From the IMG/VR virus record IMGVR_UViG_3300007541_009914, positions 1 through 25,035 of that record: 25,035 nucleotides of DNA; one strand, 5' to 3'. Below the pieces are notes generated by a model. It was given only the letters and a program-made list of their open reading frames with translations, was not told where the DNA came from and did no database searches. A program made the translations under genes and the position numbers. The DNA is from a virus. Of the stretch, positions 7,543 through 23,686 are shown one piece after another (the first letter of the stretch is position 1; every line of letters starts with the position of its first letter).

Positions 7543-7571
7543 TTTTAAGTTGATTTTTTTTTTTTGTTGTT

Positions 7572-9554: not shown

Positions 9555-9570
9555 AGTCTACAATTTTTTT

Positions 9571-9580
9571 ATTATTTATC
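9571..9580 (-). promoter_or_regulatory. Late-type promoter motif GATAAATAAT (minus strand)
   Basis: The minus strand reads CGATAAATAATAAAAAAATTG, almost the same 16-base context as at 3925-3940 on the plus strand. It lies 16 nt before the TTG start of the protease-scaffold gene, in the 53-nt gap after the DnaJ-like gene. Confidence 0.7.
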
Positions 9581-9607
9581 GCAGGCTCTGCTAAAAAATC
9601 ACAGAAA

Positions 9608-10603
9608 TTATTCTAGTTCTAGCAAGTAATTTAAGAAATTATCTCGATCCTTTTTCTTAAGCTTAGTGATATCTGGAGTTTTTACCTTGAATTTTACTAT
9701 GTATGGCGCATGCGATCCATCCATTGTAATTAGACCAGAACTCTTTAACACAAATTTAAGATTGCTTATTGTCTCCGGAACATAGATCTGTGCATCATAT
9801 TTTTTATCGAAAATAGTTTCAATCCTAATTTTTTCTCCCTCTACCAATAATTTACTTAGTGGTATTTCAATCCACTGCACGACGGTCCGATCCTCTAATT
9901 GAATATTGTCGGGCATTTCAAAATTAATGGTCACATAAAGATCTCCAAATATGGGCATTTTTTCCCTGTCTCCAAAAATAGTCTCAAATTCATGAATATC
10001 TTCATTACCCAGGTTTGCAACCCTCACCTTTGCAGAATATCGATCTCCTTCCTTAACAATGGGTAAAAACTGGTCCCGTAATCTTACATTTATGGTAATT
10101 TTTCGAGTTTCCCTAGTCTTAATAAATTCTCTAGTATTGGAAAGTTCAATTTTGTCCCTATCGAAACTTACCTCTACTTCTCCTCCATTAAATGCCGTTA
10201 CAAAGCTCATGGTTACTCCATAATTAATGTCTAGGTGAGCCGTTTGTGGAGGAGTCGAGTGTGTTCTGCCTTGACTTCTTCTTCTTTCTTGATTAGAGCG
10301 TCCTCCTCCGAAATCTCCTTTGAAATTATTCACCCAATCCTCAAAACCAAACCCTGAGGCACGTCGGCCTGTTTTTTCTCCAGTTGGACCCTTTCTTGAG
10401 GAATCATAGGCTTTTCTTTTTTCGATCGTGCTTAGCGTATCGTATGCCTCGGCCACTTCCTTAAAGCGTTCAGCCGCTTCTTCGTCACCTGCATTTTTAT
10501 CTGGGTGCCATTGCATCGCTTCTTTACGATATGCCTTTTTTATCTCTTCCTGGGTGGCATTCTGCCCACTTCCTAAAATTTTGTAATAATCTTTCAAGTG
10601 CAA
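9608..10603 (-). CDS. dnaJ: DnaJ-like co-chaperone (J domain plus C-terminal substrate-binding domains, no zinc finger)
   Basis: 331 aa from TTG, with an in-frame TAG just upstream; a second TTG two codons later would give the canonical MKDYYKILG beginning and may be the true start. Residues 3-67 are a complete J domain with the HPD motif at 33-35, which stimulates the ATPase of a DnaK (Hsp70). A short Gly/Arg/Ser-rich linker (about 70-115) replaces the zinc-finger region, as in CbpA-type J proteins. The rest (about 120-310) is beta-rich, with DLYVTINF and a following VQWIEIPLSKLLVEGEKIRI block like the DnaJ C-terminal domain. It lies directly upstream of the prohead genes, suggesting a role in folding capsid or scaffold with host DnaK (inference). 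Confidence 0.88.
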   Translation of the reverse strand: MHLKDYYKILGSGQNATQEEIKKAYRKEAMQWHPDKNAGDEEAAERFKEVAEAYDTLSTIEKRKAYDSSRKGPTGEKTGRRASGFGFEDWVNNFKGDFGGGRSNQERRRSQGRTHSTPPQTAHLDINYGVTMSFVTAFNGGEVEVSFDRDKIELSNTREFIKTRETRKITINVRLRDQFLPIVKEGDRYSAKVRVANLGNEDIHEFETIFGDREKMPIFGDLYVTINFEMPDNIQLEDRTVVQWIEIPLSKLLVEGEKIRIETIFDKKYDAQIYVPETISNLKFVLKSSGLITMDGSHAPYIVKFKVKTPDITKLKKKDRDNFLNYLLELE

Positions 10604-10667: not shown

Positions 10668-11285
10668 GTGGCGAAGATAATTAAACGTCTTAGAGATTTT
10701 ATCGATATCCATCCAGATTCAAAAATAGTGGTCTGCGGATGTGGAATATCTCTGTTGGACTTTAAAGAACATCATCAAAAGTTTATCACAATTGGAGTAA
10801 ATGATGTTCCACAACTCTTCGACCCAACCTATCTCTTAATAACTGACTCTCCGCATAGATTCAATTTAAAGCGGCAGGGCTTTATTAATTCTTCAGGAGC
10901 CAATCATCTTTTTACCTGTGCTAAGGGCTGGAGACACCCCAATATGGTTCACTTTGATCTGGGTGAAAAAGGCAAAGCGTCAATCCGCCACCCCGATAGA
11001 ATCGATCATTTTGTAAATTCTCCATATGTTGCTCTAGGCCTTGCTTATCGACTTGGTGCTAGAAAAATAGGCATAGTTGGAGTCGATTTTACTGATGGGC
11101 ACTTCTATAACCCTCGAGACGGTTCACACCCAGTCATTAAGATGAATTACCTAAAACGGGTAAATTCATCATATCGGCTCATGTTAAAGACTTTGAAAGA
11201 TGGGGGAGCCGACCTATATAATTTAAGCCAAGTCAGTAAGCTGGACCTGCCTAGAATAACAATAGACGAATTCGAAAAGCTATGA
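10668..11285 (+). CDS. DUF115/Maf-like glycosyltransferase (sialyltransferase-like), first gene of the glycan module
   Basis: 205 aa from GTG; the ATG two bases earlier runs into a stop. The N-terminus KIVVCGCGISLLDF followed by FITIGVNDVPQLFDPTYLLITD matches the pattern G-x-G-x-S-L ... N-D ... P-x-Y-x-x-x-x-D. That pattern is seen in DUF115/MptE-like proteins, in Maf flagellin glycosyltransferases and, loosely, in bacterial sialyltransferases (GT42). VALGLAYRLGARKIGIVGVDF is the second typical block, ending in the conserved G-x-D. The likely substrate is a CMP-activated nonulosonic acid, because the next gene (overlapping by ATGA) is a CMP-sugar synthetase-like protein. A related gene ends the module at 22285-22911. 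Activity and acceptor are inferred. Confidence 0.65.
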   Translation: MAKIIKRLRDFIDIHPDSKIVVCGCGISLLDFKEHHQKFITIGVNDVPQLFDPTYLLITDSPHRFNLKRQGFINSSGANHLFTCAKGWRHPNMVHFDLGEKGKASIRHPDRIDHFVNSPYVALGLAYRLGARKIGIVGVDFTDGHFYNPRDGSHPVIKMNYLKRVNSSYRLMLKTLKDGGADLYNLSQVSKLDLPRITIDEFEKL

Positions 11286-11932
11286 AAATAATAATTCCTG
11301 CAAGAAAGGGATCAAAGGGGCTTCCATTTAAGAATCGTCAGCTGTTTCAATACACATCAGACATCGTTCCAAAAGAATTTTATGATCTTGTGTGGGTAAC
11401 AACGGATGACCATAAAATAATGGAATATGCTGGTGATTATCCATTTAACATAATTGATCGCCCGACCGATTTAGCTGAAGATGATACTTCAATTCGTGAT
11501 GTCATGACTCATGCAATATCTAATATTAAGGCGGATCCTGATGAACCTATTGTAATGCTATACTTGACCTATCCAGAAAGAACTTGGTCACATATAGAGG
11601 AGGCCGTTGAGCTATTTATAGAATATTACGATATGGGATTATGCGATTCTCTGCTGTGTCGAAAGGAGATCAAGTCACATCCATATCTCTATATGTATGA
11701 AAGAGGAGTCGACGGAATGTTTGGAGAGCAAGTGGTTCAACACGATGAATATCGTCGACAGACGTATCCTCCTTGCTTTGAAATAAGTCACTATATTTCA
11801 ATATTCACACCAGCCTCTATAAATAGATTAAATCGAAACCTTTATTCAAAGGACACCATATTTTTTAGCGTGCCTGATGTTATTGACGTCGACACAAAAT
11901 TTGACTTAAATCAATTTTATGGAAGAAACTAA
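11282..11932 (+). CDS. neuA: Acylneuraminate cytidylyltransferase-like protein (NeuA/PseF family)
   Basis: 216 aa. The N-terminal nucleotide-binding signature IIPARKGSKGLPFKN (3-17) is that of CMP-sugar synthetases, which activate sialic, pseudaminic or legionaminic acid, or KDO, with CTP. Other supporting blocks are VWVTTDDHKIMEYA (37-50), RPTDLAEDDTSIRDVMTHA (60-78) and the C-terminal VIDVDTKFDLNQF, where family members have an I-D-x-x-D-L element. The size is near the family norm of about 230 aa. It overlaps the upstream DUF115-like gene by 4 nt and the downstream glycosyltransferase by 14 nt, so the three are translationally linked. With the NeuB-like gene at 20709 it gives the two hallmark steps of CMP-nonulosonate synthesis. 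Confidence 0.82.
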   Translation: MKIIIPARKGSKGLPFKNRQLFQYTSDIVPKEFYDLVWVTTDDHKIMEYAGDYPFNIIDRPTDLAEDDTSIRDVMTHAISNIKADPDEPIVMLYLTYPERTWSHIEEAVELFIEYYDMGLCDSLLCRKEIKSHPYLYMYERGVDGMFGEQVVQHDEYRRQTYPPCFEISHYISIFTPASINRLNRNLYSKDTIFFSVPDVIDVDTKFDLNQFYGRN

Positions 11933-13370
11933 AATAAACATATCTACGACGGCTAGTGATCGTACGCTTCACCTAACTCGAACATCAATCTTTACTTTTT
12001 TAAAGACTAATACGTGGTTTGATGGAACGATTTATCTGCTTTCTCATCCAAAACTGCCTCTTTCAAAAAGATCAGCTGATCTCTTAAAAAATCTGTATAA
12101 CAAGATAGTTGTTGTCGATCTATATCACTATAAAGAAATCAATGATCTGTTTCAAAAAAACCGATCAAACACTTCTGAATTACATAAGTTATTAACGCTT
12201 GGAGTAGTTTCTCTTCCTATAAAAACAATCTATTTTTCAAATACGTCAGTCTTCATTAATAGCGTTGCCGATCTTCTTGATTCAGAAAAATCTGTCATTT
12301 TAGAAAATACGATTGACTTTATATACTTAAATGAAAGATTTGCTAATTGGTTTCCATCAAATGATGTCAAATCAAGCATTATAAGCAATCTTAGTGATCC
12401 TAAAATTTGTGAGAGCTATCTTTTTAAGACTTCTTTTGATTATCGAGACAACAGGTACCATCTCTTTATGAATGATTCAAAGACGATGAAGGCGATTATT
12501 TTTAATACGTTTAACGATAGTCAGAAATACATAAAGATAAATCAGTATTGGGCAAATTATAACCAAACTTCTAATAAATTTAGTATGCGTCCAATTAATA
12601 GAAAGAAAGTAATCGCATCTAATCAAAAAATAGTATCACAAGCTGATCCGACTCCAGTAAATTTGAACATAGATATTTCAGATATTTCTATTATCATTCC
12701 GGCATATCGCGCACAAGACTACATAGAAGAATGTTTAGATTCAATAGAAAAACAAGGCAAAAATATTGAAATTCTTGTTGGAATTGACAATTGTCAGACT
12801 ACTCTAGATAAACTTATTCAAATAAAGGAAAAATATTCAAAGTTATCCATATTTTTTTCAGAGAAAAAAGTTGGACCGTATATTCTTAGAAATTCGCTAT
12901 CAATACATGCAAAAACTAATAATTTGCTTTTTTTTGATGCCGACGACATAATGACAAATGACTCACTATCAATTATCTTATCTTATAATAATGGATCAAG
13001 GCCTATTCGATTTTCATACTTTAATTTTAAAGATGGGGAAAATCATCTTATTACAAATCAAAAAAATCAATCTGTTGCACACGGAGTATTTTTCATTCCA
13101 GTAAAAATCTTTAAATCAACTGGCGGTTTTCAATCATGGGAATTTGCAGCTGATACTGAATTTATGAAGAGATGTGATGCAAATAGAATTTTAAGTTTAA
13201 ATTTAAACCAAGGTCTTTTTTACAGACGCATCCATCCTATGAGTTTAACACAAAATTCATCAACAGGATATCAGTCAATTCAGCGAAAAAAAATTGCCGA
13301 GCGCATTCGAAAGACTAAAAAATGGCCAGTTCCAATCACTCCACAGTTAATAGAACTTAAAAAACTATGA
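11919..13370 (+). CDS. Two-domain glycosyltransferase with C-terminal GT2 (GT-A) domain
   Basis: 483 aa. The C-terminal half (about 255-480) is a family 2 glycosyltransferase: ISIIIPAYRAQDYIEECLDSI (256-276), GIDNCQTTL (288-296), VGPYILRNSL, the metal-binding FFDADD (338-343) and the late block RRIHPMSLT. The N-terminal half (about 1-235) begins KINISTTASDRTLHLTRTSI and contains IYFSNTSVFI, resembling a second sugar-transferase-like fold such as GT8, but this is weak. The C-terminal domain is clearly related to the separate gene at 13974-14681 (shared GIDNC-x-x-TL, GPY and ADDIM). Composition here is intermediate between the flanking genes and the AT-rich core. The acceptor is unknown. Confidence 0.8.
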   Translation: MEETKINISTTASDRTLHLTRTSIFTFLKTNTWFDGTIYLLSHPKLPLSKRSADLLKNLYNKIVVVDLYHYKEINDLFQKNRSNTSELHKLLTLGVVSLPIKTIYFSNTSVFINSVADLLDSEKSVILENTIDFIYLNERFANWFPSNDVKSSIISNLSDPKICESYLFKTSFDYRDNRYHLFMNDSKTMKAIIFNTFNDSQKYIKINQYWANYNQTSNKFSMRPINRKKVIASNQKIVSQADPTPVNLNIDISDISIIIPAYRAQDYIEECLDSIEKQGKNIEILVGIDNCQTTLDKLIQIKEKYSKLSIFFSEKKVGPYILRNSLSIHAKTNNLLFFDADDIMTNDSLSIILSYNNGSRPIRFSYFNFKDGENHLITNQKNQSVAHGVFFIPVKIFKSTGGFQSWEFAADTEFMKRCDANRILSLNLNQGLFYRRIHPMSLTQNSSTGYQSIQRKKIAERIRKTKKWPVPITPQLIELKKL

Positions 13371-13374
13371 TATT

Positions 13375-13974
13375 ATGAAACACCTAATATTTACTAGGAT
13401 ATTCTTTGATGATAAAGAACTAATGAAAAAGTATCTTGTATTGACTAAGGAAATATTAATCCCAAGTTTAAAATCCCAATCTTGTAAAAATTTCACTTGG
13501 GTTTTGATGATTAGAAAAGAAGATGAAGTCTTACTAAAAAGAGAATTAGATTATCCATTCAAAGCAGTTTACAGTCTTGCAGAATTTGTAAAGTATGCAA
13601 TCAATAATAATTTTGAAATACAAACTAGGCACGATTGTGATGATTGGATGTCTCCTAATTATGTTAATGCGATTCAAAATCAATATAATAACAATATTAA
13701 GAAGTGGAGTTCATTTCTAATACAATCTCAACCAATTCAGAGAATGTATCATACTAATGAAAAGAAAAAGTTAAGGGCATATCATAATAAGAGATGCTCG
13801 ATGCACTTATCATTATGCCAAAAGACAGTTACTAATCATATTAACGAAAGGCAACATGGTCAAATGTATGAAATCACTCCAAATGTTATATCATTAGGAG
13901 AAGGATTTACTGAATGGGTGATACATGGAGATAATATAACTATTAAAAGAGGAAATTTAAAAACAAATAACTGA
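13375..13974 (+). CDS. Putative glycosyltransferase (rhamnosyltransferase-like)
   Basis: 199 aa. The N-terminus MKHLIFTRIFFDD, then LVLTKEILIPSLKSQSCKNFTWVLMI and the acidic motif RHDCDDW (85-91), match the outline of the 'putative rhamnosyl transferase' family: an ordered start, a Q-x-x-x-x-F-x-W block, and an R-x-D-x-D-D metal site. It is shorter than the family norm of about 250-300 aa and may be a compact or trimmed version. It marks the start of the strongly AT-rich core. Its TGA shares ATGA-type overlap with the next gene's ATG at 13974. Confidence 0.68.
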   Translation: MKHLIFTRIFFDDKELMKKYLVLTKEILIPSLKSQSCKNFTWVLMIRKEDEVLLKRELDYPFKAVYSLAEFVKYAINNNFEIQTRHDCDDWMSPNYVNAIQNQYNNNIKKWSSFLIQSQPIQRMYHTNEKKKLRAYHNKRCSMHLSLCQKTVTNHINERQHGQMYEITPNVISLGEGFTEWVIHGDNITIKRGNLKTNN

Positions 13975-14681
13975 TGAATACTAAAATATCTATAATTATA
14001 TCAGCTTTTAATGCCAGTGAATATATTGAGGAATGTATAATGTCAGTAGTTAACCAAAGTTACTTTAAACTCTATAATAATTACGAAATAATATTAGGAA
14101 TAGATAATTGTGAAGATACTCTTAATGAAGTCATTAAATTTAAAGATAATATACACAATTTAAAACTAGTTTCATTTAATGAAAATAATGGACCTTATCT
14201 TGTATTTAATACATTAATAAGTATTAGCTCCGGAGAATATATTTCAATATTTGGTGCAGATGATATTATGCTTAGTAATTTTATAGAGGACAATCTTATG
14301 GAAATAAAAAATGGAAGTGACTTTGTTATAGCTAGGGGAAATAATTTTAATCATCCTAATAAAAATAAGGTCATAAAGACATATAATCCAGATGGTGTAA
14401 TTATTTTTAATAAAAGTGATTTTATGTTAATTAATGGATACGAAGGATGGAGATGTGCAGCTGACTCTGATTTAAAAAATAGATTTAATATAATGGGATT
14501 AAAATGTAAACATTCAGAAAATGTCACATATCTTAGACGATTGCATTCAGATAGTATTACAAATAGTAAAAATCATGGATTCAATACTGCATATAGATTA
14601 CGCTTAAAGAGTATTATTAATGATAGGCAGACTTCGAAAATAGATAAATTTAAAATAACTAAAAAATATAAAATAATATGA
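13974..14681 (+). CDS. GT2 family glycosyltransferase, paralogue of the C-terminal domain at 11919-13370
   Basis: 235 aa, nearly all one GT-A domain: ISIIISAFNASEYIEECIMSV (5-25), GIDNCEDTL (42-50), NNGPYLVFNTL (71-81), the metal site GADD (94-97), YEGWRCAADSDLKNRF (a typical acceptor-loop region) and RRLHSDSIT. The match of these blocks, in order and spacing, with the C-terminal half of the 11919 gene indicates duplication or acquisition of a relative from a similar cluster. Very AT-rich, Arg mostly AGA. Overlaps the following gene by 4 nt. Confidence 0.82.
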   Translation: MNTKISIIISAFNASEYIEECIMSVVNQSYFKLYNNYEIILGIDNCEDTLNEVIKFKDNIHNLKLVSFNENNGPYLVFNTLISISSGEYISIFGADDIMLSNFIEDNLMEIKNGSDFVIARGNNFNHPNKNKVIKTYNPDGVIIFNKSDFMLINGYEGWRCAADSDLKNRFNIMGLKCKHSENVTYLRRLHSDSITNSKNHGFNTAYRLRLKSIINDRQTSKIDKFKITKKYKII

Positions 14682-15412
14682 AAAATCAACCAGTAGATAT
14701 ATGCATTGTTACATATAACAGATTAGAATACTTAAAAAATTGTGTATGGTCAATTATTGCATCTACTAAGATTAATTATAGATTAATTGTAATATCTGAT
14801 AATTCAACTGATGGAACTAATGAATGGCTTAATGAAATGAAATCACATGGTAAGATAGATGAAATTATTATCAATGAAGAAAATCTTGGAAGTACTAAAA
14901 CTTTCAATAAGGTAATTAATGCATCTACCAGTGAGTTTTTTGTTATGCTTAATGACGACATGTGGTTTCATAGAGGATGGGATGAGGCATGTGTTCGATT
15001 ATTCAATGAAAATAAAGATTGTGGTATTGTCACCTTCTTTAATTATCCAATAGATCATCGAATAGAAAAAAGAAGACATAACAAATATTCATATAAATGG
15101 CCAGAAACTGGACTAGCTGCATCAATGATTAGAAAAAGATTATTTAATTCAACTAGAGGATTTAGGCTACCTGAGGGAGTTAAGATGGGATATTTTGCAA
15201 GAGTTTTTTGTAAAGAAGTTGCTGGTCTAAAGGATCTTCAAAATAAGCAATATATAACGGATCCATATTATGCAGAACAAATGGATAGATTTAATCCAGG
15301 AGTACCTGGACGACCTAAGCTACATCAAGAATATTTATATGGAGAATATAATAAACGACGCGGAATTGAAAAGACTAAACATAAAGATATATTAGCAGGA
15401 AAAAGAAAATAA
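14678..15412 (+). CDS. GT2 family glycosyltransferase
   Basis: 244 aa, standard family 2 layout: VDICIVTYNRLEYLKNCVWSI (6-26), VISDNSTDGTNEWL (38-51) for nucleotide binding, NLGSTKTFNKVINAS (69-83) and the metal-binding MLNDDMWF (90-97). The C-terminal region (RGFRLPEGVKMGYFARVFC) should form the acceptor site. I see no membrane segment, so it acts in the cytoplasm on a soluble, lipid-linked or protein acceptor. It starts inside the end of the previous gene (ATGA overlap). Confidence 0.87.
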   Translation: MKNQPVDICIVTYNRLEYLKNCVWSIIASTKINYRLIVISDNSTDGTNEWLNEMKSHGKIDEIIINEENLGSTKTFNKVINASTSEFFVMLNDDMWFHRGWDEACVRLFNENKDCGIVTFFNYPIDHRIEKRRHNKYSYKWPETGLAASMIRKRLFNSTRGFRLPEGVKMGYFARVFCKEVAGLKDLQNKQYITDPYYAEQMDRFNPGVPGRPKLHQEYLYGEYNKRRGIEKTKHKDILAGKRK

Positions 15413-15415
15413 ACT

Positions 15416-16195
15416 ATGAAAATATCTCAAGCATATGTATCTCCAACTCTTGAAAAAACATTTGGGTCTAATTTTAGAAGCAAATGGGGATTCAAAAAAT
15501 ACAGTGATATCCGTAAACCTGCAGTATTTTTTGGAATGTATTCAGACATAGATAGAAAAGCATTTATAAATCATAAAGGGATTTCGATAGTAGTCTGGGG
15601 AGGAGGCGATATGAAACCTAATAGCCTGCAATTAGTTAAGTCTGTAATTGATGCTAATCGATCTTATACTGGCGCATATTCAGGAGAGTTTTCAGATATA
15701 TTAAAATCTAATGGGATATCTCATAAACAAATATACATACCATTAAAAGATTATTCTAATTTTACTCCTACTCCCCTTGGAGATAAGATATACGCATATA
15801 GAGGAGTCAATGGAAACCGAGAATCATACTTTAAATGGAACGAAGTAATATCTCCAATAATAAAACACTTTGGAGAGGATACGGTGATATATACTGAACG
15901 CGAGTCAATTGATAATTTATTAGAAAATTATTATAAAAAATCATTTATATATATTAAGCCTACTCCTAAAGGTGGATGTACTGCTATGTTTGAGCTTGGG
16001 CATATGGGTAGAAAGACAATAGGAAATGGGTTAGGAAACTTACCTAATGTCTTATCGTATAAGTCTACTTCTGATATTATAAAATTAATAGAAGATGAAT
16101 CTAAATACATTGGAAAAATTAGGTATGACATATGTACAAGTACTAAAAATATATTTATAGGTAGTGAGTGGACCCATCTTGACTTCTGGAGGTAA
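15416..16195 (+). CDS. Putative GT-B-like glycosyltransferase, paralogue of 18437-19195
   Basis: 259 aa. Middle and C-terminal blocks PLGDKIYAYRGVNGN, FIYIKPTPKGGCTAMFELGHMGRKTIGNG and SYKSTSDIIKLIEDES resemble the second Rossmann half of GT4-type enzymes, in which E-x-x-x-x-G-x-x-x-I followed by a helix binds the nucleotide sugar. The gene at 18437-19195 shares the same blocks in order (FFFG/VFFG ... NHKG; PLGNKIYAHIG; ELAKMGRSTI; VGEEW...DFW), so these are paralogues. The N-terminal half is short for a full GT-B protein, so the assignment is tentative. It starts 3 nt after the previous stop. Confidence 0.62.
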   Translation: MKISQAYVSPTLEKTFGSNFRSKWGFKKYSDIRKPAVFFGMYSDIDRKAFINHKGISIVVWGGGDMKPNSLQLVKSVIDANRSYTGAYSGEFSDILKSNGISHKQIYIPLKDYSNFTPTPLGDKIYAYRGVNGNRESYFKWNEVISPIIKHFGEDTVIYTERESIDNLLENYYKKSFIYIKPTPKGGCTAMFELGHMGRKTIGNGLGNLPNVLSYKSTSDIIKLIEDESKYIGKIRYDICTSTKNIFIGSEWTHLDFWR

Positions 16196-16215
16196 AGTAA
16201 ATAAACAGAAATGAA

Positions 16216-16626
16216 ATGAAATTTAAATTAGTAAAAAATGAATCTAAATATTGGGAGTTTATCAGAGAACTTCGACTTGATTCAAATAATATAAACGGAT
16301 TTCTTGAGAAAATCGATATTTCAAAGGATGATCAAATTAAGTACATGAATAAATATAATGATTGTTATTATGTATGCTTATATGAAAGTAATCCTATTGG
16401 ATATATTGGTGTAATTGATAAAGATATTAGAATATGTACTTCTTCTAACTATAAACAAAAAGGAGTAGGAACATTTATGTTAAGTGAATTAATTAAAATT
16501 AAACCTGAGGCTACTGCAAAAATACTAAAAGATAATATTGCAAGCTTAAATCTATTTAAAAAATGTAAATTTAGTATCGTATCAGAAGATTCTAATATGT
16601 ATTATCTAGAATATAAAAATAATTAA
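16216..16626 (+). CDS. GNAT-family acetyltransferase (small)
   Basis: 136 aa. The fold outline fits GNAT N-acetyltransferases: an N-terminal strand and helix (LVKNESKYWEFIRELR), CYYVCLYESNPIGYIGVID (beta strands 2-4), an acetyl-CoA pyrophosphate loop in the region YKQKGVGTFMLSELI (Q/K-x-G-x-G), and NIASLNLFKKCKFSIV near the end, the usual N-x-x-A-x-x-x-F-x-x-x-x-F signature. In nonulosonate pathways a GNAT (PseH/LegH-like) acetylates the 4-amino group of a nucleotide-linked sugar; that role fits the neighbours but is inferred. An ATG 5 nt earlier hits a stop at once, so 16216 is the start. Confidence 0.8.
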   Translation: MKFKLVKNESKYWEFIRELRLDSNNINGFLEKIDISKDDQIKYMNKYNDCYYVCLYESNPIGYIGVIDKDIRICTSSNYKQKGVGTFMLSELIKIKPEATAKILKDNIASLNLFKKCKFSIVSEDSNMYYLEYKNN

Positions 16627-16631
16627 ATAAT

Positions 16632-17264
16632 ATGCCAATACACAAACACAATCCTTATAAAATAGTTAGAATGTTTGAAGAGGAAATAGCTCACTATACT
16701 GGAGCTCCATTTGCGGTATCTGTAGATAGCTGCACTAACGCTCTCTTCTTAGCTTGTAAATACTTAGAAGTAAAAGAAGTTACAATCCCATCTAAAACAT
16801 ATTTGTCTGTTCCAATGAGTATTATTCATGCAGGCGGTGAAGTAGTATTTAATACTAGCCCGACAGCTAATCATTGGAAGGGAATATATAAGCTCGAGCC
16901 ATATCCAATATATGATTCAGCTAAAAGGTTGACCTCAAATATGTATATACCAGGATCATTTATGTGCCTATCGTTCCACATTAAAAAACAGCTAGGAATA
17001 GGAAAAGGTGGAATGATATTAACAGATAATGAGCAAGCAGTAGAATGGTTTAAAAAAGCGAGATATGAGGGAAGAAGCGAAAAATACTACAAGGAAGATA
17101 GCATTGAATCTTATGGATGGAATATGTATATGACTCCACAGGAGGCATCACAAGGTTTATGTTTAATGCAAAATTACCCAGAGCATAATCGAGACTTAGA
17201 TGAATTAAATGGATATAGAGATTTAACTGAATTTCCAATATTTAAAGATAATAAAAAAATATAA
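16632..17264 (+). CDS. Shortened DegT/DnrJ/EryC1/StrS-type aminotransferase
   Basis: 210 aa with the family layout: AVSVDSCTNALFLACKYL (28-45, the usual S-G-T-x-A-L block), TIPSKTYLSVPMSIIHAGG (51-69), IYDSAKRL (93-100) whose Asp95 would contact the cofactor pyridine nitrogen, and SFHIKKQLGIGKGGMILTDN (114-133) in which Lys119 is the likely PLP lysine. Such enzymes install amino groups on keto-sugars such as the PseC/LegC substrates. Full-length members have about 370-400 aa; this one ends soon after the large domain, so most of the C-terminal small domain is missing. A clean start and stop with 5-nt spacing on either side argue against recent decay. It may be a compact enzyme, a partner-dependent subunit or a non-catalytic relative. 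Confidence 0.78.
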   Translation: MPIHKHNPYKIVRMFEEEIAHYTGAPFAVSVDSCTNALFLACKYLEVKEVTIPSKTYLSVPMSIIHAGGEVVFNTSPTANHWKGIYKLEPYPIYDSAKRLTSNMYIPGSFMCLSFHIKKQLGIGKGGMILTDNEQAVEWFKKARYEGRSEKYYKEDSIESYGWNMYMTPQEASQGLCLMQNYPEHNRDLDELNGYRDLTEFPIFKDNKKI

Positions 17265-17268
17265 TAAT

Positions 17269-17754
17269 ATGATATCTCAAAATGCTATAATTGGAGAGAA
17301 TGTAGAAATTTCTGAATACGTAATAATTGAAGATGGTGCTCAAATTGGAGATAATTGTAAAATTGGACCTTTTTCTATAATAAGAAGAAATGCTAAAATT
17401 GGAAAAAATTGTAAGTTTACTGCATATGATGAAATTAGAGAAAATGCAGTAATTGGAGACAATTGTACATTCGGAAGCAGATGTACAATATGCGCAGACT
17501 TTATTATTGGAAACAACGTAACAATTAAATATGGATTTGTCAGTACAACTCTAGATTTTAATAAAGGAGTAGATTTACATGCGGGTACTATTGGAGATAA
17601 TACTATGATAGGAGCAAATGTAATGTTGGCTCCAGGTTCAAGTGTTGGAAAAAACTGTATTATTGGAGCATGTTCACAAGTTAGAAATATAGTAAATGAT
17701 GGGGAAATATGGTTTGGAAACCCTGCAAAATTTTATAAGAATGTTAGAAGTTAA
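17269..17754 (+). CDS. Left-handed beta-helix (hexapeptide repeat) acyltransferase
   Basis: 161 aa made almost entirely of hexapeptide repeats [I/V]-G-x-x-x-x: IGENVEISEYVIIEDGAQIG, IGDNCKIGPFSII, AKIGKNCKF, AVIGDNCTFG, IIGNNVTI, TIGDNTMIGANVMLAPGSSVG, IIGACSQV, ending WFGNPAKFYKN, the usual capping segment. Members form trimers with the acyl-CoA or acyl-ACP site between subunits. PglD and WbpD/WlbB-type relatives acetylate amino-sugar nucleotides made by a DegT aminotransferase, which is exactly the preceding gene. All six Arg codons are AGA, in keeping with the AT-rich core. Confidence 0.88.
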   Translation: MISQNAIIGENVEISEYVIIEDGAQIGDNCKIGPFSIIRRNAKIGKNCKFTAYDEIRENAVIGDNCTFGSRCTICADFIIGNNVTIKYGFVSTTLDFNKGVDLHAGTIGDNTMIGANVMLAPGSSVGKNCIIGACSQVRNIVNDGEIWFGNPAKFYKNVRS

Positions 17755-17761
17755 TAAATGG

Positions 17762-18436
17762 ATGAGCGAGTTCTATGGAAGAACATGGTATGATATAAAA
17801 TCATCAAAGTGCTTAGAAATAGCCAACGCTCAAGCAAATACTCCATGTGTTCTAGAATGGAGAATACCTACTAATCAATATAAAGATATTGAATTAGCTC
17901 AGAGTTTAGGTTTTACCTTAGTTGAATCTATGGTAAAGTTTCAGACTTTAATAAGTAAATCTAAATCAAATACAGATGGCATCAGATTATCAAAAGATGA
18001 GGATTTTAATGATCTAATAAATATTATGGAAGAATGTTACTTCAATCACCATAAATTTTATAATAGATTTAAAAATAGAGACTTTTTTACAGAATCCCAA
18101 TCTAAAGAATATTACATGAAAAGCTTAACTAATTTCTTTAATAAAGATGGATCTATTGTATTAGTTGCTGAAGATGATATTGGAGTATATGGATTTAGAA
18201 TAATAAAAAAAATTAATGAAACTGAATACAGTGGAGTTGTTGCAGGAGTTTTAAATAGAGCAAAGGGAAGATCAACATTAAGAAAATTACAAGAAAAAAC
18301 CTATGATATTATAGGTCATGACTATCTTGAGAATAACGCAACTCAATTAGGAAATTATCAAGTTATTAATAATCACATATCAGCCGGAAGGAAGCTTTTA
18401 AAAATAGAGCATATATTTCTAAAAAAAATAGATTAA
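17762..18436 (+). CDS. GNAT acetyltransferase, WecD/RffC-like
   Basis: 224 aa from the ATG at 17762; an earlier in-frame ATG at 17696 would overlap the previous gene by 59 nt. The block VLEWRIPTNQYKDIELAQSLGFTLVESMVKFQ (about 28-59) matches the N-terminal segment of WecD-like enzymes (dTDP-fucosamine acetyltransferase family). The GNAT core follows: GIRLSKDEDFNDLINIM, IVLVAEDDIGVYGFRI, and an acetyl-CoA loop in VVAGVLNRAKGRSTLRKL. The closing QLGNYQVINNHISAGRKLLKI equals the typical T-x-x-x-N-x-x-x-N-x-x-A-x-x-x-x-x-G-F end. It should N-acetylate an amino sugar linked to a nucleotide. Confidence 0.75.
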   Translation: MSEFYGRTWYDIKSSKCLEIANAQANTPCVLEWRIPTNQYKDIELAQSLGFTLVESMVKFQTLISKSKSNTDGIRLSKDEDFNDLINIMEECYFNHHKFYNRFKNRDFFTESQSKEYYMKSLTNFFNKDGSIVLVAEDDIGVYGFRIIKKINETEYSGVVAGVLNRAKGRSTLRKLQEKTYDIIGHDYLENNATQLGNYQVINNHISAGRKLLKIEHIFLKKID

Positions 18437-19195
18437 ATGATAGATAAGATTATTCAATCATCAAGTAGCCCAGATGCTAAGTATTTTCTAGATAAGTTCA
18501 ATAAAAGGTGGAATCTATTAGATTACCATAATCCAGACGCCCCATGCTTTTTCTTTGGATGTTTAGGGCAGCATGATACTATTAATAACCATAAAGGATT
18601 TAAAATACTAATGTTCATGTCCCCATCAGATAATAGATATTTAAATTTAATTAAGCCATCTCCTAATTTGATCTTAATAACGTCTCAGTTCTTTAAAATT
18701 CCAAGTATATTTAAAACTAGAGATGTCATTATAGAAACTCAAGATTATTCTATATTTAAACCAAGCCCACTTGGAAATAAGATATACGCCCATATTGGTA
18801 AAATGGGAAGACGTAAAATATTTAAGTATGACGATTTATTAAGATTACAAGATAAGTTAGATTGGGAAATAATATTTGGAATGTCTGAAACTGGTGCGTC
18901 TACATATATTTCTCCTAATGATTTAAAATCTAAATATTATGATAAATCATTTGTAAGTATAAATCTATCATCAGGTGCAGGAAGAACTACTATTCGAGAA
19001 CTTGCTAAAATGGGACGCTCTACAATAACTAATTCATCAAATGATTATCAATGGGTTATTAAGTATAGAGATTATGATCATATAATAGAATTAATAAAAG
19101 AAGAAAGTAAAAAAATAGGAACTGTTCAACCCGATCTGATGAAAAACTATCCATATGTCGGAGAAGAATGGTTAAATGTAGATTTTTGGATATGA
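18437..19195 (+). CDS. Putative GT-B-like glycosyltransferase, paralogue of 15416-16195
   Basis: 252 aa beginning directly after the preceding stop (TAA then ATG). Shared blocks with the 15416 gene are APCFFFGCLG ... NHKG, SPLGNKIYAHIGKMG, SFVSINLSSGAGRTTIRELAKMGRSTITNS and the near-identical end YVGEEWLNVDFW (versus FIGSEWTHLDFW). The E-x-x-K-M-G-x-x-x-I element and following helix (DYDHIIELIKEESKKIG) are like GT4 donor-binding halves. Substrate unknown. It is the last of the strongly AT-rich genes and overlaps the next start by 4 nt (ATGA). Confidence 0.62.
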   Translation: MIDKIIQSSSSPDAKYFLDKFNKRWNLLDYHNPDAPCFFFGCLGQHDTINNHKGFKILMFMSPSDNRYLNLIKPSPNLILITSQFFKIPSIFKTRDVIIETQDYSIFKPSPLGNKIYAHIGKMGRRKIFKYDDLLRLQDKLDWEIIFGMSETGASTYISPNDLKSKYYDKSFVSINLSSGAGRTTIRELAKMGRSTITNSSNDYQWVIKYRDYDHIIELIKEESKKIGTVQPDLMKNYPYVGEEWLNVDFWI

Positions 19196-20022
19196 AATTA
19201 GGCGTAGCATATATCGCATTTGATGGAACTGAATTATTAGAACACTCGATTCGACAGATTAGGAATAACGTCGATTATATCTGCGTATTATATCAAAAAA
19301 GATCATGGTTTGGCCATCCAATTTCCAAAGAAGATCTTCAGAATCTAGAGCTGCTCAAAAAATCAAATTTAATAGACGATTTAATCGATTTCGATCGTTT
19401 TATTCCGGTCAGGGGCGCAAATACTAAAAATATTAAGAAAGTAAAGCATTACGAACTTCAAAAAAGGCAATTTGGATTAAATGTATGTCTAAATAAAGGC
19501 TGCACGCACTACTTATGCATGGATGTTGATGAGTTTTACGAATCCAGCGAATTTAAAAGGGCAAAAAGGGAAATTGAGATCAATGATTATGACATAACTG
19601 CTGTGAAATTCATCAATTATGTTAATTTACCTATTATTCATCGCGGATTTGACTCAAGTCATGTTCCATTTATCTGTAAAATCAACCCAGCAGCAAAAAT
19701 GACATCTAATTTTTTCGTAAGGGTCGATCCTACTCGTGGAATAAAGAATGGTGGTAAAAAATCACATCAATTCAACAAATCTGAGATAAAAATGCATCAC
19801 ATGGAAACAGTGAGAAAAAATCTTACTGTGAAGTATGCATCCACGACTAGGGCGATATTCCAGCGAAATAGAACCTCTGAGCTAGTTAGTCGTATAAAAT
19901 CAGTGAATGAACAAAGTACAAATTTTACGTTCAATAAAATAATTTTTCCAAAATCAGGAAAAATGAAGTTGACTCAATGTCAAAATATCTTCAATATCCC
20001 TTATCAACAATGGCAGAAATAG
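19192..20022 (+). CDS. Putative glycosyltransferase with DVDEFY motif
   Basis: 276 aa from the ATG at 19192, chosen over an in-frame ATG at 19168 because it forms the usual ATGA overlap with the preceding gene and gives a natural beginning (MKLGVAYIAFDGTELLEHSI). YLCMDVDEFYES (108-119) is a D-x-D metal/nucleotide-sugar motif of the sort in GT2-related and GT92-like enzymes. RQFGLNVCLNKGCTHYL just before it is the helix and strand leading to that motif. A conserved-looking MHHMETVRKNL (about 197-207) may belong to the acceptor site. From here on composition returns to the level of the rest of the phage. Confidence 0.65.
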   Translation: MKLGVAYIAFDGTELLEHSIRQIRNNVDYICVLYQKRSWFGHPISKEDLQNLELLKKSNLIDDLIDFDRFIPVRGANTKNIKKVKHYELQKRQFGLNVCLNKGCTHYLCMDVDEFYESSEFKRAKREIEINDYDITAVKFINYVNLPIIHRGFDSSHVPFICKINPAAKMTSNFFVRVDPTRGIKNGGKKSHQFNKSEIKMHHMETVRKNLTVKYASTTRAIFQRNRTSELVSRIKSVNEQSTNFTFNKIIFPKSGKMKLTQCQNIFNIPYQQWQK

Positions 20023-20702
20023 CTTTAGAATTTACAACCACTTCATGTAATAGGCCTGAGATATTAGATCTAACATATAGTTCATATGTTTCCAGATTAA
20101 AGGGAATTGATTTTCAAAAATCAACTCTTTATATAAACATTGACCCTGCTCCAGATTCTTCCAATATTTCAGAGATGGAAAAAGTAGCTAAAAAATATTT
20201 CGGTAAAGTAGTTGCTAATTATCCAAAAGAACCTAATTTTGCGGCTGCAATAATATGGTGTTTTTCTCAAGTAAAAGGAGAATACTTCTTTCATCTAGAA
20301 GACGATTGGATGCTGAAACAAAGAGTCGATGTTGCAACCATGATAAAGAAAGTAGGGGAGCATAATATCCAATGCGTATTGAACAAAAAGGTAATGCTTA
20401 AAAATGAATTAGGAGAACCCTGCTTTATACCTTCTTTATTTAGAACCGAGATAGTTAAAAGATATTTACCCTTAATGAATTCAGCGTCCAATCCTGAATA
20501 TCAAATGAAAATGATATTTAGAAAAAATAAAGCAGGACTAAATACGTATAGGAGCGTTTTATGGAGAAAATCTCATGAAATATCTAAAGACATAGGTAGA
20601 GCCTGGTTAAAAAAGAATGGGATCGTTAGAGATTATGCTAAAACAGGCAAATCCTCTGCAAAATGGTCGCCTTGGATAACTTGGAGAACTAAAAAGAAAT
20701 AA
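20010..20702 (+). CDS. Putative GT2-like glycosyltransferase with LEDDW motif
   Basis: 230 aa from the ATG at 20010 (13-nt overlap with the previous gene); an in-frame ATG at 19977 would overlap 46 nt and add an unconvincing 11 residues. LEFTTTSCNRPEILDLTYSSY (6-26) is a GT2-type start, YINIDPAPDSSN replaces the D-x-S/G turn, NFAAAIIWCFSQVKGEYFFHLEDDW (76-100) carries the helix and the acidic E-D-D metal site. The C-terminus is strongly basic (WSPWITWRTKKK). No membrane segment seen. Acceptor unknown. Confidence 0.72.
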   Translation: MAEIALEFTTTSCNRPEILDLTYSSYVSRLKGIDFQKSTLYINIDPAPDSSNISEMEKVAKKYFGKVVANYPKEPNFAAAIIWCFSQVKGEYFFHLEDDWMLKQRVDVATMIKKVGEHNIQCVLNKKVMLKNELGEPCFIPSLFRTEIVKRYLPLMNSASNPEYQMKMIFRKNKAGLNTYRSVLWRKSHEISKDIGRAWLKKNGIVRDYAKTGKSSAKWSPWITWRTKKK

Positions 20703-20708
20703 TATATT

Positions 20709-21602
20709 ATGAAAAAGGTTGTTATTTGTGCAGAGATCGGAATAAACTTTGCTTTTGGGGAAGATCCTTCAAAGTTTATGGACAATGTCAAAAGGCTTAT
20801 CGACGTTGCGTCAGTTGCGGGCTGTGATTACGTAAAATTTCAAAAGCGCACTCCTAGTCTTTGTGTACCTGAAGAACAAAAGAGTCTACCCAAATCTGTT
20901 CCTTGGAGAAAAGAGGAAACTACTTATTTTGAGTACAAATTAGACTCGGAACTGGGTACAGACGATTATAAAGAAATTGATAGATATTGTGATGAAAAAG
21001 GAATCAAATGGTTTGCATCCGCTTGGGATAAGACTGCTGTTGATTTCTTAAGGGGATTCGAAACGCTCTTGCCTAATAATAAATGGGGAGTAATGATGAA
21101 AATTCCATCTGCCATAATCACGGACCTTGATCTATTGGAATATGCTCGAGAAAATTGTGATTTCCTAATCATTTCAACCGGCATGAGTACCCAAAAAGAG
21201 ATCGATATTGCAATTGAAGTCGGTCAGCCTGATGTTGTGATGCACACCAATTCGACTTATCCGTCTCCTTCTAATGAACTTAATTTAGATTACATTCAGT
21301 ATCTTAAGGACATTTCTCGAGGTGGAGATTTCAGTAAGTCATTTGATGTCGGTTATTCTGGTCATGAATTTGGACTGACTACAACAATTGCGGCTACCCT
21401 GTTGGGTGCAAACTGGATAGAGCGACATATTACGTTAGACCGCTCCCTATGGGGAAGTGATCAGATTGCCTCAGTTGAACCTCAAGGTCTAATTAAATTG
21501 GTTAAGAGCATTAGGGATATTGAGCTCGCCAGAGGAGGCTATGGACCACGTAAGATACTTGATTCTGAGCTTTCAAAAAGAAAATCATTAAGAGGCAAAT
21601 GA
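20709..21602 (+). CDS. neuB: N-acetylneuraminate synthase family protein (NeuB/PseI/LegI-like), no SAF domain
   Basis: 297 aa TIM barrel condensing phosphoenolpyruvate with a hexose derivative to form a nonulosonic acid. Motifs in order: VVICAEIGINF (4-14), GCDYVKFQKRTP (38-49), WFASAWD, FLIISTGMSTQKEI, VVMHTNSTYPSPSNELNL, VGYSGHEFGLTTTIAA and NWIERHITLDRSLWGSDQIASVEP, which hold the metal- and substrate-binding residues. Family members have about 340-350 aa because of a C-terminal antifreeze-like SAF domain that caps the neighbouring subunit's active site; this one stops at the junction (KSLRGK), so the cap is absent. Which sugar it makes (neuraminic, pseudaminic or legionaminic type) cannot be read here. 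The next small gene overlaps its stop (ATGA). Confidence 0.9.
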   Translation: MKKVVICAEIGINFAFGEDPSKFMDNVKRLIDVASVAGCDYVKFQKRTPSLCVPEEQKSLPKSVPWRKEETTYFEYKLDSELGTDDYKEIDRYCDEKGIKWFASAWDKTAVDFLRGFETLLPNNKWGVMMKIPSAIITDLDLLEYARENCDFLIISTGMSTQKEIDIAIEVGQPDVVMHTNSTYPSPSNELNLDYIQYLKDISRGGDFSKSFDVGYSGHEFGLTTTIAATLLGANWIERHITLDRSLWGSDQIASVEPQGLIKLVKSIRDIELARGGYGPRKILDSELSKRKSLRGK

Positions 21603-21736
21603 AGAGCTCAAGACAAAAGTATGTCGATCTAATTAAGTCTGAACTTGCGCATTCAAATTATCTAAACGGCTGGTTGATTAATTGGTATCAAGAAAAACTA
21701 AAAGAACTTACTCAAGATGAAAATAACTTCAACTAA
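21599..21736 (+). CDS. Small coupled ORF (45 aa)
   Basis: ATG at 21599 overlaps the NeuB-like stop in an ATGA, and the frame runs to TAA at 21734-21736, overlapping the next gene by 20 nt. The product (MKSSRQKYVDLIKSEL, then NYLNGWLINWYQEKLKELTQ) would be mostly one or two amphipathic helices with three tryptophan/tyrosine-rich turns and no Cys or signal. It fills a 114-nt gap that is otherwise unusual in this tightly packed module. I do not recognise it. Confidence 0.5.
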   Translation: MKSSRQKYVDLIKSELAHSNYLNGWLINWYQEKLKELTQDENNFN

Positions 21737-22004
21737 AATTCTTCAGTTCATTGAAGGTAACTTAAAGATGTTGGGAGACCAATTCGATATCCTTCCTCAT
21801 CATGAAAAGGAACAAGTGCTTTATCGAATGGATATCTGCAAGGATGACTGTGTAAAACAGGGATACTGTAAGTATTGTGGCTGTTCTGTACCTGGAAAAA
21901 TGTATGTAAACTCCTCATGTAATAACGGAGAACGCTTTCCAGACATGATGACCCGAGAAAAATGGCAAAAATACAAGGAGGAAAATAACATTACTGTCGT
22001 ATGA
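21717..22004 (+). CDS. Cys-rich conserved hypothetical protein
   Basis: 95 aa. An N-terminal helix region (1-38) precedes a cysteine cluster at residues 41, 45, 51, 54, 56 and 68 (CKDDCVKQGYCKYCGCSVPG ... SSCNNG) and a closing GERFPDMMTREKWQKYKEEN. The arrangement suggests a small zinc-binding or disulfide-stabilised fold. I recall similar C-x-x-C-G-C ... FPDMM proteins as unassigned genes in other phages but cannot name the family. It overlaps the HAD-like gene downstream by 4 nt (ATGA), so it is translated with the sugar genes. Confidence 0.7.
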   Translation: MKITSTKILQFIEGNLKMLGDQFDILPHHEKEQVLYRMDICKDDCVKQGYCKYCGCSVPGKMYVNSSCNNGERFPDMMTREKWQKYKEENNITVV

Positions 22005-22315
22005 TCATCTTTATAGACATTGATGATACGATATGTAAACTACATTCGCCAGTGGACTATGAATCGGCAGTGCCGATCATACCCGCAATTGAAAAAGCCA
22101 ATGCTCTATATGATGAAGGCCATACTATAATTTATTGGACGGCTCGAGGAACGGGTAGCGGAACTGATTGGCGCGAATTGACAGAATCTCAATTTAAGAA
22201 GTGGGGAGTCAAATATCATGAGCTAAGATTTGGAAAACCCATCTATGATCTCTTTATCGATGATAAAAATATGAATTCAGCAGAATGGCACTTAAAGGGG
22301 GTAAACACATATTAG
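22001..22315 (+). CDS. Small HAD-superfamily phosphatase-like protein
   Basis: 104 aa with all HAD motifs: I, FIDIDDTIC with nucleophile Asp6 and acid/base Asp8; II, IIYWTARG (Thr47); III, Lys79 in FGKPIYDLF; IV, FIDDKN (Asp87, Asp88). It has no cap domain, as in KdsC-like or capsule-biosynthesis phosphatases of about this size. In a nonulosonate pathway it could remove the phosphate from a 9-phosphate sugar (NeuB products formed from ManNAc-6-P-like substrates) or act on a sugar phosphate precursor. Which substrate is inference. Coupled to both neighbours by overlaps of 4 and 31 nt. Confidence 0.82.
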   Translation: MIIFIDIDDTICKLHSPVDYESAVPIIPAIEKANALYDEGHTIIYWTARGTGSGTDWRELTESQFKKWGVKYHELRFGKPIYDLFIDDKNMNSAEWHLKGVNTY

Positions 22316-22911
22316 TCTTAGGTAATTCTCCTCAAATCAACGAGATTGACTTTGATCGATTAGACCCGTCCGTGATCACGTTAGGTGTAAATAGAATCTG
22401 GCTCAAACACAAACCCGACTATCTATTTTTTCACGACTATGATATCGTTCAAGAATTAGGGGCGCATCCTGAACTGCTTGCCCAATTGCAAGATACTTCT
22501 GAGATCTACTCAAGTGATTGGTTAAGGGCCAGCAAAAAACCCATACCCAATTGGGTAAATGTGTATAACCGTCAAGTCAACACGCGTCGAATGTTTCCTG
22601 ACTCTGTAACAACGGCTATGTTACTTTTTTCAACTCATTATGAAAAGATTAATGACTGTACATTTTACATTGCTGGAGTTCCGTTAAAATGGTGTAGTCC
22701 TAGTCACTTTTGGAAGCAATTAGATTACCCTAATGCCCTAAATAAAAATCAAAGTAATTGGTATGACCCTAGATTTCAACGAGTCATACATAATTTTAAA
22801 AGATTACGCAATATCGGCTTTCGAATGGTTTCGGCGACCCCTCATTCCGAACTTAATCGATTCTTAAGATTCGAAAATATCGAAAATCTCTATATTAAAG
22901 GGAAACCCTAA
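22285..22911 (+). CDS. DUF115/Maf-like glycosyltransferase, last gene of the glycan module
   Basis: 208 aa. ILVLGNSPQINEIDFDRLDP (about 9-28), then VITLGVNRIWLKHKPDYLFFHDYD, repeats the pattern of the first gene of the module (G-x-G/N-x-S ... GVN ... P-x-Y-x-x-x-x-D). SVTTAMLLFSTHYEKINDCTFYIAGVPL is the second block. The family includes flagellin Maf transferases and resembles sialyltransferases. It differs enough from the 10668 gene that the two probably use different acceptors. Its start lies 31 nt inside the HAD-like gene, and its 3' end overlaps the convergent spike gene by 17 nt with no terminator between. Confidence 0.62.
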   Translation: MALKGGKHILVLGNSPQINEIDFDRLDPSVITLGVNRIWLKHKPDYLFFHDYDIVQELGAHPELLAQLQDTSEIYSSDWLRASKKPIPNWVNVYNRQVNTRRMFPDSVTTAMLLFSTHYEKINDCTFYIAGVPLKWCSPSHFWKQLDYPNALNKNQSNWYDPRFQRVIHNFKRLRNIGFRMVSATPHSELNRFLRFENIENLYIKGKP

Positions 22912-23686
22912 CCGTCTTAGATAGCATGGCTTCCCTGGCCGTCTCAACGATTCCGCTTACCGCTCCAGGAGTCGGTGGAAACTTGCCGTCCACTGCGGCT
23001 GCCATGCCTATCAATAGTGCATACAATTTGTCTCCAAGCACGGCTGGTCCTTTTACCGGATTGTGACCCAAATCCACAAAATTACCATTTAACCAAATGG
23101 AATTGGAAGCAGCTTCAATTTCACTACCTGCTGTTGCTTCAATCCTTGAGTTTGAATGTATAGTAATTGTTCCTCCTTGCAGAGTTATGGATGATTGAGA
23201 TTGATCATGTTCGATATTGATCGACTTATCCCTAGCAATGTTTATTCGGGATCCCTTTAATTGCAGAGTAAGACCTTTGCTGAGGGTAAACCAAATCTTA
23301 AGTTCCTCGTCCCCATCAAAAAGAACAATATGCGAACCTAGATATTCTCCCTCCTTGCCCAACTCCTCGCGCACGTCTTCAGCAATCTCATGCAACGAAT
23401 AATATTCTGGAGAGTATGGATTTCCATTATCGAATCGTACAGCAACAATCGATCCTTTTTTAGGCACAGATAATGATCCTCCGCGACCGTCCTGACCAAA
23501 AAAGGAGCTCTTTTGTTTTGGATATGCCCACGGCAGGTCCTCAACATCGAGTCCATCGTGAATGCTGACCACTCTTATTCGAGCTCTGCCCTCTTTTCGA
23601 GGATCATTTGGATCTTCAATTATACCTAAGAATTGTTTGTCTAGTAAGTCCGACGCTCGTTTATCTATATCGTGATTCTGGTCCAT
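22895..23686 (-). CDS. 5: Baseplate central spike protein (gp5/gpV-like OB fold plus beta-helix), no lysozyme domain
   Basis: 263 aa. The N-terminal OB-fold signature FLGIIEDPNDPRKEGRARIRVV (about 19-40) with DLPWAYP (51-57) and VPKKGSIVAVRFDNGNP is that of contractile-tail spike proteins (T4 gp5 N-terminal domain, P2 gpV, VgrG). A beta-rich middle and a beta-helix-like stretch (about 150-215: RINIARDKSINIEHDQSQSS, TITIHSNSRIEATAGSEIEA, SIWLNGNFVDLG) would form the trimeric needle. T4 gp5 carries a lysozyme domain between these parts; here it is missing, while a lysozyme gene stands alone at 3954-4769. The C-terminus (VETAREAMLSKTVRVSL) is helical. The start lies 30 nt after the upstream baseplate gene. 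Confidence 0.85.
   Translation of the reverse strand: MDQNHDIDKRASDLLDKQFLGIIEDPNDPRKEGRARIRVVSIHDGLDVEDLPWAYPKQKSSFFGQDGRGGSLSVPKKGSIVAVRFDNGNPYSPEYYSLHEIAEDVREELGKEGEYLGSHIVLFDGDEELKIWFTLSKGLTLQLKGSRINIARDKSINIEHDQSQSSITLQGGTITIHSNSRIEATAGSEIEAASNSIWLNGNFVDLGHNPVKGPAVLGDKLYALLIGMAAAVDGKFPPTPGAVSGIVETAREAMLSKTVRVSL

Follow-up and report, generated by a model that had tools for sequence, protein, structure and literature searches.

Gene clusters that modify lipopolysaccharide or capsule have been described in jumbo cyanophages and pelagimyophages (PMC7824862, PMC7029224); they combine glycosyltransferases, sugar-modifying enzymes and HAD phosphatases, are polymorphic and, in the pelagimyophages, have structural genes nearby. 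The island described here lies on a 25,035-base fragment of one virus record, which we call the window, and is a variant of these phage surface-glycan clusters. It resembles them in the traits just listed but differs in its core, where CMP-ulosonate synthesis and sialyltransferase-fold enzymes frame an exchangeable middle; a text search of the two papers for sialic and NeuB (or neuraminic) terms found none. A further likeness is to the Moraphages, aquatic jumbo Bacteroidota phages that carry DnaJ and four core putative glycosyltransferases, although no sialic or neuraminic annotation was found in the text of PMC12619734, in which they are described. Glycosylation of mycobacteriophage virions (Freeman et al. 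2023, as cited in PMC12619734) provides a precedent for glycans on virion proteins, albeit in different phages.

On the enzymatic side, the island has a counterpart in the Kdn pathway of Bacteroides thetaiotaomicron (BT1713-1715) and Prymnesium parvum, in which a NeuB-type synthase, a HAD phosphatase and a CMP-synthetase act together; the route from Man-6-P through Kdn-9-P and Kdn to CMP-Kdn is experimentally known (PMC6200933). The phage HAD is, however, smaller and of a different subfamily, and the phage synthase lacks the SAF domain. Searches of the openly accessible literature turned up no description of such a system built on phage NeuB, sialic acid or nonulosonate genes. We estimate at roughly 55% the probability that the island is a phage locus which produces a nine-carbon, nonulosonate-like sugar acid, activates it with CMP and incorporates it into a glycan.

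Genomic setting and gene content

ORF calling places 18 overlapping or tightly spaced plus-strand frames at 10668-22911, with inter-ORF gaps of -59 to +20 nt and a sole larger gap of 114 nt after the NeuB gene. The island is flanked on the left by capsid, head protease and DnaJ genes (minus strand, 5899-10603) and on the right by baseplate genes (minus strand, from 22895 onward), as the preliminary description had it: about eighteen tightly coupled genes between head and baseplate functions. Among the flanking genes, the capsid protein is encoded at 5899-7542 and a baseplate protein at 22895-23686. The DnaJ-like gene (9608-10603) adjoins the head maturation protease and is the conserved left neighbor of the island in relatives. 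Elsewhere in the window, an IMP dehydrogenase/GMP reductase-type gene (2214-3287, PF00478 E 3e-100) directly follows the topoisomerase II genes and is also matched in the huge phage LR756500 (L004).

That description had also called the phage T4-like. A T4-type major head protein, head protease and type II topoisomerase are indeed all matched (PHROG 138, 207, 543/551, 430), but the capsid protein is closest to those of uncultured huge phages, Lak phages, and Tenacibaculum and Flavobacterium phages, at 27-38% identity (30-38% for the huge and Lak phages), and the next baseplate-side protein matches mostly Bacteroidota phages. By these nearest matches, the phage is huge-phage/Bacteroidota-phage-like and T4-related in a broad sense only, and its host is probably a bacteroidote. 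The genes of the island are as follows.

a, 10668..11285, + strand: putative nonulosonate transferase with Maf/GT42 fold, 205 aa; conserved left end
b, 11282..11932, + strand: NeuA/PseF-like CMP-sugar synthetase (CTP_transf_3); conserved left end
c, 11919..13370, + strand: modular glycosyltransferase, family-specific N-domain plus GT2 (PF00535)
d, 13375..13974, + strand: putative rhamnosyltransferase-like protein, marginal PF11316 match (25.7 bits vs 23)
e, 13974..14681, + strand: GT2 glycosyltransferase (PF00535 E 6e-18)
f, 14678..15412, + strand: GT2 glycosyltransferase (PF00535 E 2e-25)
g, 15416..16195, + strand: no family match, resembles l; possibly GT-B-like (by eye only)
h, 16216..16626, + strand: GNAT acetyltransferase (PF00583), weak PseH match of 19.7 bits
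i, 16632..17264, + strand: mini-DegT PLP-type aminotransferase, 210 aa (PF01041)
j, 17269..17754, + strand: hexapeptide-repeat acyltransferase (PF00132 E 2e-32; NeuD_NnaD 89 bits)
k, 17696..18436, + strand: WecD-like acyltransferase (PRK10975, 42.7 bits)
l, 18437..19195, + strand: no family match, resembles g
m, 19168..20022, + strand: no family match, GT-A-like by eye; often beside NeuB in relatives
n, 19977..20702, + strand: no family match, GT-A-like by eye
o, 20709..21602, + strand: short NeuB-family synthase without SAF, 297 aa (PF03102 E 1e-57); conserved right end
p, 21717..22004, + strand: small Cys-rich conserved protein, no family match
q, 22001..22315, + strand: small cap-less HAD phosphatase (PHROG 1238 E 3e-28)
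r, 22285..22911, + strand: putative nonulosonate transferase with GT42 (CstII) fold; conserved right end

Profile searches uphold the earlier NeuB-like, NeuA/PseF-like, DegT, GNAT, hexapeptide and HAD assignments. They also identify h (16216) as a GNAT by PF00583 and k (17696) as a WecD-like acyltransferase. One count needs adjustment: of at least seven proposed glycosyltransferases, c, d, e and f are recognized by profile while g, l, m and n are glycosyltransferase-like by eye only. Both g and l match the same locus genes.

Recurrence and exchange of the middle genes

A scan of IMG/VR added 80 loci that carry this NeuB. In about 66 of 83 phage loci a NeuA-like gene is found within 10 kb of NeuB, and in 75 of the 83 the HAD q; these genes almost always share a strand and are often neighbors. 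The relatives were reached through these NeuB neighborhoods; a search by DNA pattern that used only the NeuA protein b found none. Whole islands occupy the same site in seven other contigs, giving eight with the window (the L190 island is the L005 contig and is counted once), and their order is DnaJ, then a b c ... o p q r, then the baseplate side. Because NeuB, NeuA and the HAD co-occur in most of the 83 loci and whole islands recur at one site, the arrangement is beyond chance. The earlier picture of a phage-borne pathway for late steps of nonulosonate-type synthesis, rich in glycosyltransferases and placed where virion genes meet, is supported. The reverse search from q recovered NeuB in 50 of 72 loci, and q occurs in sugar clusters that lack NeuB as well, so q is associated with NeuB and not exclusive to it, which weakens the idea that q is NeuB-specific.

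Relatives keep the ends of the island (a, b ... o, p, q, r) and exchange its AT-rich middle. Across the eight islands, end genes have a homolog in another island in 98% of comparisons, a value that is partly by construction since end labels were assigned by homology to the window; for the third gene the figure is 48% and for the other middle genes 11.5%. The base composition, which is independent of this labeling, agrees: in the window the end genes have a GC content of 0.37-0.40, as do the flanks, and the middle genes 0.22-0.34. Taken together, the GC contrast and the homology pattern point to fixed ends and imported middles. The smallest island (L178) consists only of a, b, a third gene (GT8 + GT29), NeuB, a methyltransferase, p, q and r. 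In at least 15 relatives, the Cys-rich p is conserved between the NeuB and HAD genes. Exchange extends into the third gene itself (window 11919-13370; L178 5873-8185; L020 2012-4396), whose N-terminal domain is similar across relatives while its C-terminal modules are swapped (GT2, GT8+GT29, GT8+RgpF, GT29). By analogy, the swap of the middle looks like a bacterial change of surface-sugar type or serotype cassette.

AT-rich middle genes that are exchanged between relatives could also be taken as passenger DNA, a recently captured fragment of a host capsule locus with no function in the phage. We regard this as highly improbable: all 18 frames are open, and the end genes, conserved at a fixed site, share ~45-60% identity between divergent contigs. 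The aminotransferase i keeps the Lys and Asp columns and lacks internal and C-terminal parts of DegT; it was considered as a broken gene, a reading rejected because a mini-DegT form of about 198-240 aa with both columns kept recurs in many phages. This mini-DegT family also occurs inside glycosyltransferase clusters, including those of the cultured Flavobacterium phages immuto, and at 8986-9630 of L249.

Synthase, CMP-sugar synthetase and a proposed route to the sugar

The synthase o belongs to the NeuB family (PF03102, 195.5 bits against a gathering cutoff of 22.1), but at 297 aa it stops before the C-terminal SAF domain, and full-length phage NeuBs (270-320 aa) likewise end where SAF would begin. 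Against the canonical N-acetylneuraminate synthase model TIGR03569 it scores 163 bits, below the cutoff of 399.65, aligned over positions 2-274 of 329; against the pseudaminate synthase PseI model TIGR03586 it scores 120 bits (cutoff 340.25), and a tree places it apart from the equivalog PseI rows. That tree has 84 rows, among them ten equivalog NeuB proteins and eight of equivalog PseI. In it, a split with SH-aLRT 99 separates the short NeuBs of phages and cells from both equivalog groups; strict monophyly of the phage NeuB clade is neither established nor rejected (p-AU 0.11). Eight MAG or single-cell contigs labeled bacteria or archaea (L086-L093) fall inside the phage clade, perhaps through misbinning of phage DNA or through gene transfer. 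Its sequence thus sets o apart from the canonical synthases of Neu5Ac, legionaminate and pseudaminate and assigns it to a short, SAF-less subfamily that we name here. The sialic-, pseudaminic- or legionaminic-type sugar proposed earlier is not supported in that wording, because o lies in a short clade of its own, distinct from the equivalog NeuB and PseI proteins. Short SAF-less NeuBs are common in Bacteroidota, many of 148 sampled matching the NeuB profile over roughly positions 1-278 only, and some Bacteroidota short-NeuB loci (among L086-L165) carry a split transketolase, a class III aminotransferase, an SDR and a KDN-9-phosphatase-like HAD.

The synthetase b matches CTP_transf_3 (27.7 bits, cutoff 22.6) and has full-length similarity to Neisseria CMP-Neu5Ac synthetase (PDB 1eyr, E 4e-14). 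It keeps the P-loop ARxGSKGxPxKN, RQ and the C-terminal DVDT (DxDT) for nucleotide and metal binding. From the CTP_transf_3 match, the P-loop and DxDT, b classifies as a member of the CMP-sialate/CMP-pseudaminate synthetase family; its score against the CMP-pseudaminate synthetase PseF equivalog TIGR03584 is 43.8 bits, below the cutoff of 205.7. The sugar-binding motif reads SHY where characterized enzymes have NGA, so the sugar of b may be unusual. In q, the DxDxT, T, K and DD motifs are present. It has no match to the KDN-9-phosphate phosphatase/KdsC models NF058599 or TIGR01670, with only BT0820-like (22 bits) and EcbF-like (18 bits) scores.

Given these families, we consider it quite likely that the island makes a CMP-nonulosonate-like sugar. 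The divergence of the NeuB subfamily and of the NeuA sugar motif from characterized enzymes would also suit a product that is not a nonulosonate, such as another 3-deoxy-ulosonate, and since phage glycosyltransferases can act on DNA (reviewed in PMC12619734), the glycan might be placed on phage DNA. Either proposal appears improbable, as NeuB, a CMP-synthetase and sialyltransferase folds fit CMP-ulosonate chemistry and the combination is repeated in dozens of phages.

The window has no PseB- or NeuC-type gene, in accord with the earlier remark that no dehydratase or NeuC-type early gene is present. Among 14 related records (380, 299 and 207 kb among them; possibly incomplete), the NeuC-type PF02350 is absent from 13, and only one has a strong full-length PF02719 match. 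The earlier conclusion that early intermediates must come from the host does not follow: the NeuB-HAD-NeuA set is also compatible with a phosphorylated route that starts from a common hexose-6-phosphate, and such a 9-phosphate route from central metabolism would explain the missing PseB and NeuC steps. In this route, o would condense PEP with a sugar, most likely a hexose-6-phosphate (mannose-6-P or ManNAc-6-P), to give a 9-phosphate, and q would strip the phosphate as a functional counterpart of KdsC/KDN-9-phosphatase. The product would be converted to the CMP-sugar by b, a step with family-level support, and transferred by the GT42/Maf-fold proteins a and r, for which the support is at the level of fold. 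The exchangeable middle (glycosyltransferases, acyltransferases, mini-DegT) would build or decorate the rest of the glycan in a phage-specific manner, like a serotype cassette.

We give the phosphorylated route about even odds. A KdsC/KDN-9-phosphatase-like HAD lies within two genes of cellular short NeuBs in 48 of 74 loci and is fused to NeuA in nine, as against 0 of 32 equivalog NeuB/PseI loci in Bacteroidota, where the flanks are shorter (one to three genes); such a pattern would be expected of a short NeuB whose product is a 9-phosphate, as it is in the Kdn pathway. The argument is weaker for the phages, because, among cellular short NeuBs, those closest to the phage clade mostly lack an adjacent KdsC. 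Phage short NeuBs usually sit beside a small HAD other than the KdsC/KDN-9-phosphatase type, and the different subfamily of q and its presence in sugar clusters without NeuB count against the phosphorylated route. A non-phosphorylated route, in which the host supplies ManNAc or a 2,4-diacetamido-hexose or the phage's own DegT and GNAT partly do so, and o acts like NeuB/LegI, would account for the DegT, GNAT and NeuD-like acyltransferase of the island and for the nucleotide-sugar dehydratases and SDRs carried by several related phages. We find it unlikely, however, since o lies outside the canonical clades, the DegT is reduced, the DegT, GNAT and hexapeptide genes belong to the exchangeable middle rather than the conserved core, and the adjacent HAD is left unexplained.

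Proposed transfer of the sugar and its possible acceptor

AlphaFold2 models of a (pLDDT 87.6) and r (pLDDT 92.3) were compared with the PDB by Foldseek and VIA. The model of a matches the Maf flagellin glycosyltransferase 5mu5 first (VIA Z 15.8), followed by the pterin kinase MptE/HPPK (Z 12.3) and CstII (Z 11.8). Maf enzymes transfer nonulosonates from CMP onto protein Ser/Thr (PMC11339370), and a shares their central fold; unlike them, it is a single domain of 205 aa, aligned to residues 257-512 of 5mu5, with the N- and C-terminal Maf domains absent. PF01973 (Maf_flag10) is matched by 18 of 20 a-family members, the window member itself being without a match. The a-family profile (A2) had also matched CstII (E 5e-4), but this match was discarded because it disappeared once one divergent row was dropped.

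The first 14 Foldseek matches of r are all bacterial GT42-type sialyltransferases. Its full-length fold is like that of CstI/CstII and the Pasteurella enzyme 9c08, with VIA Z 13.3 to CstII (195 residues aligned, 3.8 A rmsd), 11.5 to the Pasteurella enzyme and 11.2 to Maf, but identity is ~15% and there is no Pfam match. Since the r profile (A1) has no meaningful PDB or Pfam match, only the fold identifies r. Within the family S-H-F-W-K, N14 and N36 are invariant and are candidates for catalytic or CMP-sugar-binding residues. Comparison by hhalign relates the a and r families (E 1.4e-7), and these comparisons refine their previous DUF115/Maf-like label to a GT42/Maf sialyltransferase fold.

GT42 enzymes use CMP-nonulosonates as donors. 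As Maf enzymes do too, a and r are the best candidates for the transfer step, and on the modeled folds it is likely that one or both transfer the CMP-nonulosonate-like sugar. A fold is no proof of donor or acceptor, however, and the fold of a also matches MptE/HPPK. GT29 sialyltransferase domains also occur in related phages, beside NeuB or fused in the third gene, one with E 7e-27.

The preliminary description took the position between head and baseplate genes to favor a virion or surface role. Position alone does not settle the target; the absence of membrane proteins and the Maf-like fold are better, if indirect, indications. None of the 18 island proteins is a candidate for membrane spanning, and the 88 proteins of related islands have only two weak hydrophobic segments between them, which speaks against a dedicated export system. 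Together with the Maf-like fold, this favors a cytoplasmic acceptor, most simply virion proteins, and we see an evenly balanced chance that a phage structural protein is glycosylated in the cytoplasm. The glycan might instead be directed to the host envelope, where altered LPS or capsule would block competing phages or change recognition. Clusters of glycosyltransferase genes in jumbo cyanophages and pelagimyophages are usually interpreted in this way (PMC7824862, PMC7029224), and the exchangeable middle resembles O-antigen loci. Elsewhere, GT42 and GT29 enzymes usually cap oligosaccharides, which also suits an envelope target. No flippase, polymerase or membrane-anchored initiating transferase is found among the 18 proteins; the host's own machinery could serve, so their absence is not decisive, and we judge the envelope a doubtful target.

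The fullest version of our proposal is that a lineage of large phages possesses a complete route from hexose-phosphate to CMP-nonulosonate and uses it for a sialic-acid-like virion glycan whose composition is switched by cassette swap. Stated in full it is rather improbable, but if it is true, cassette swap between fixed end genes would be the virus equivalent of capsule serotypes. If the core works as its families suggest, no host pathway would be needed for phages to produce sugars like sialic acid, which enzymes of sialyltransferase fold would then attach, and the hiding or diversifying of virions or host cells by acidic sugars would become directly testable. Short NeuBs with phosphatase neighbors are common in Bacteroidota, and an understanding of the phage enzymes would clarify the cellular pathway as well.
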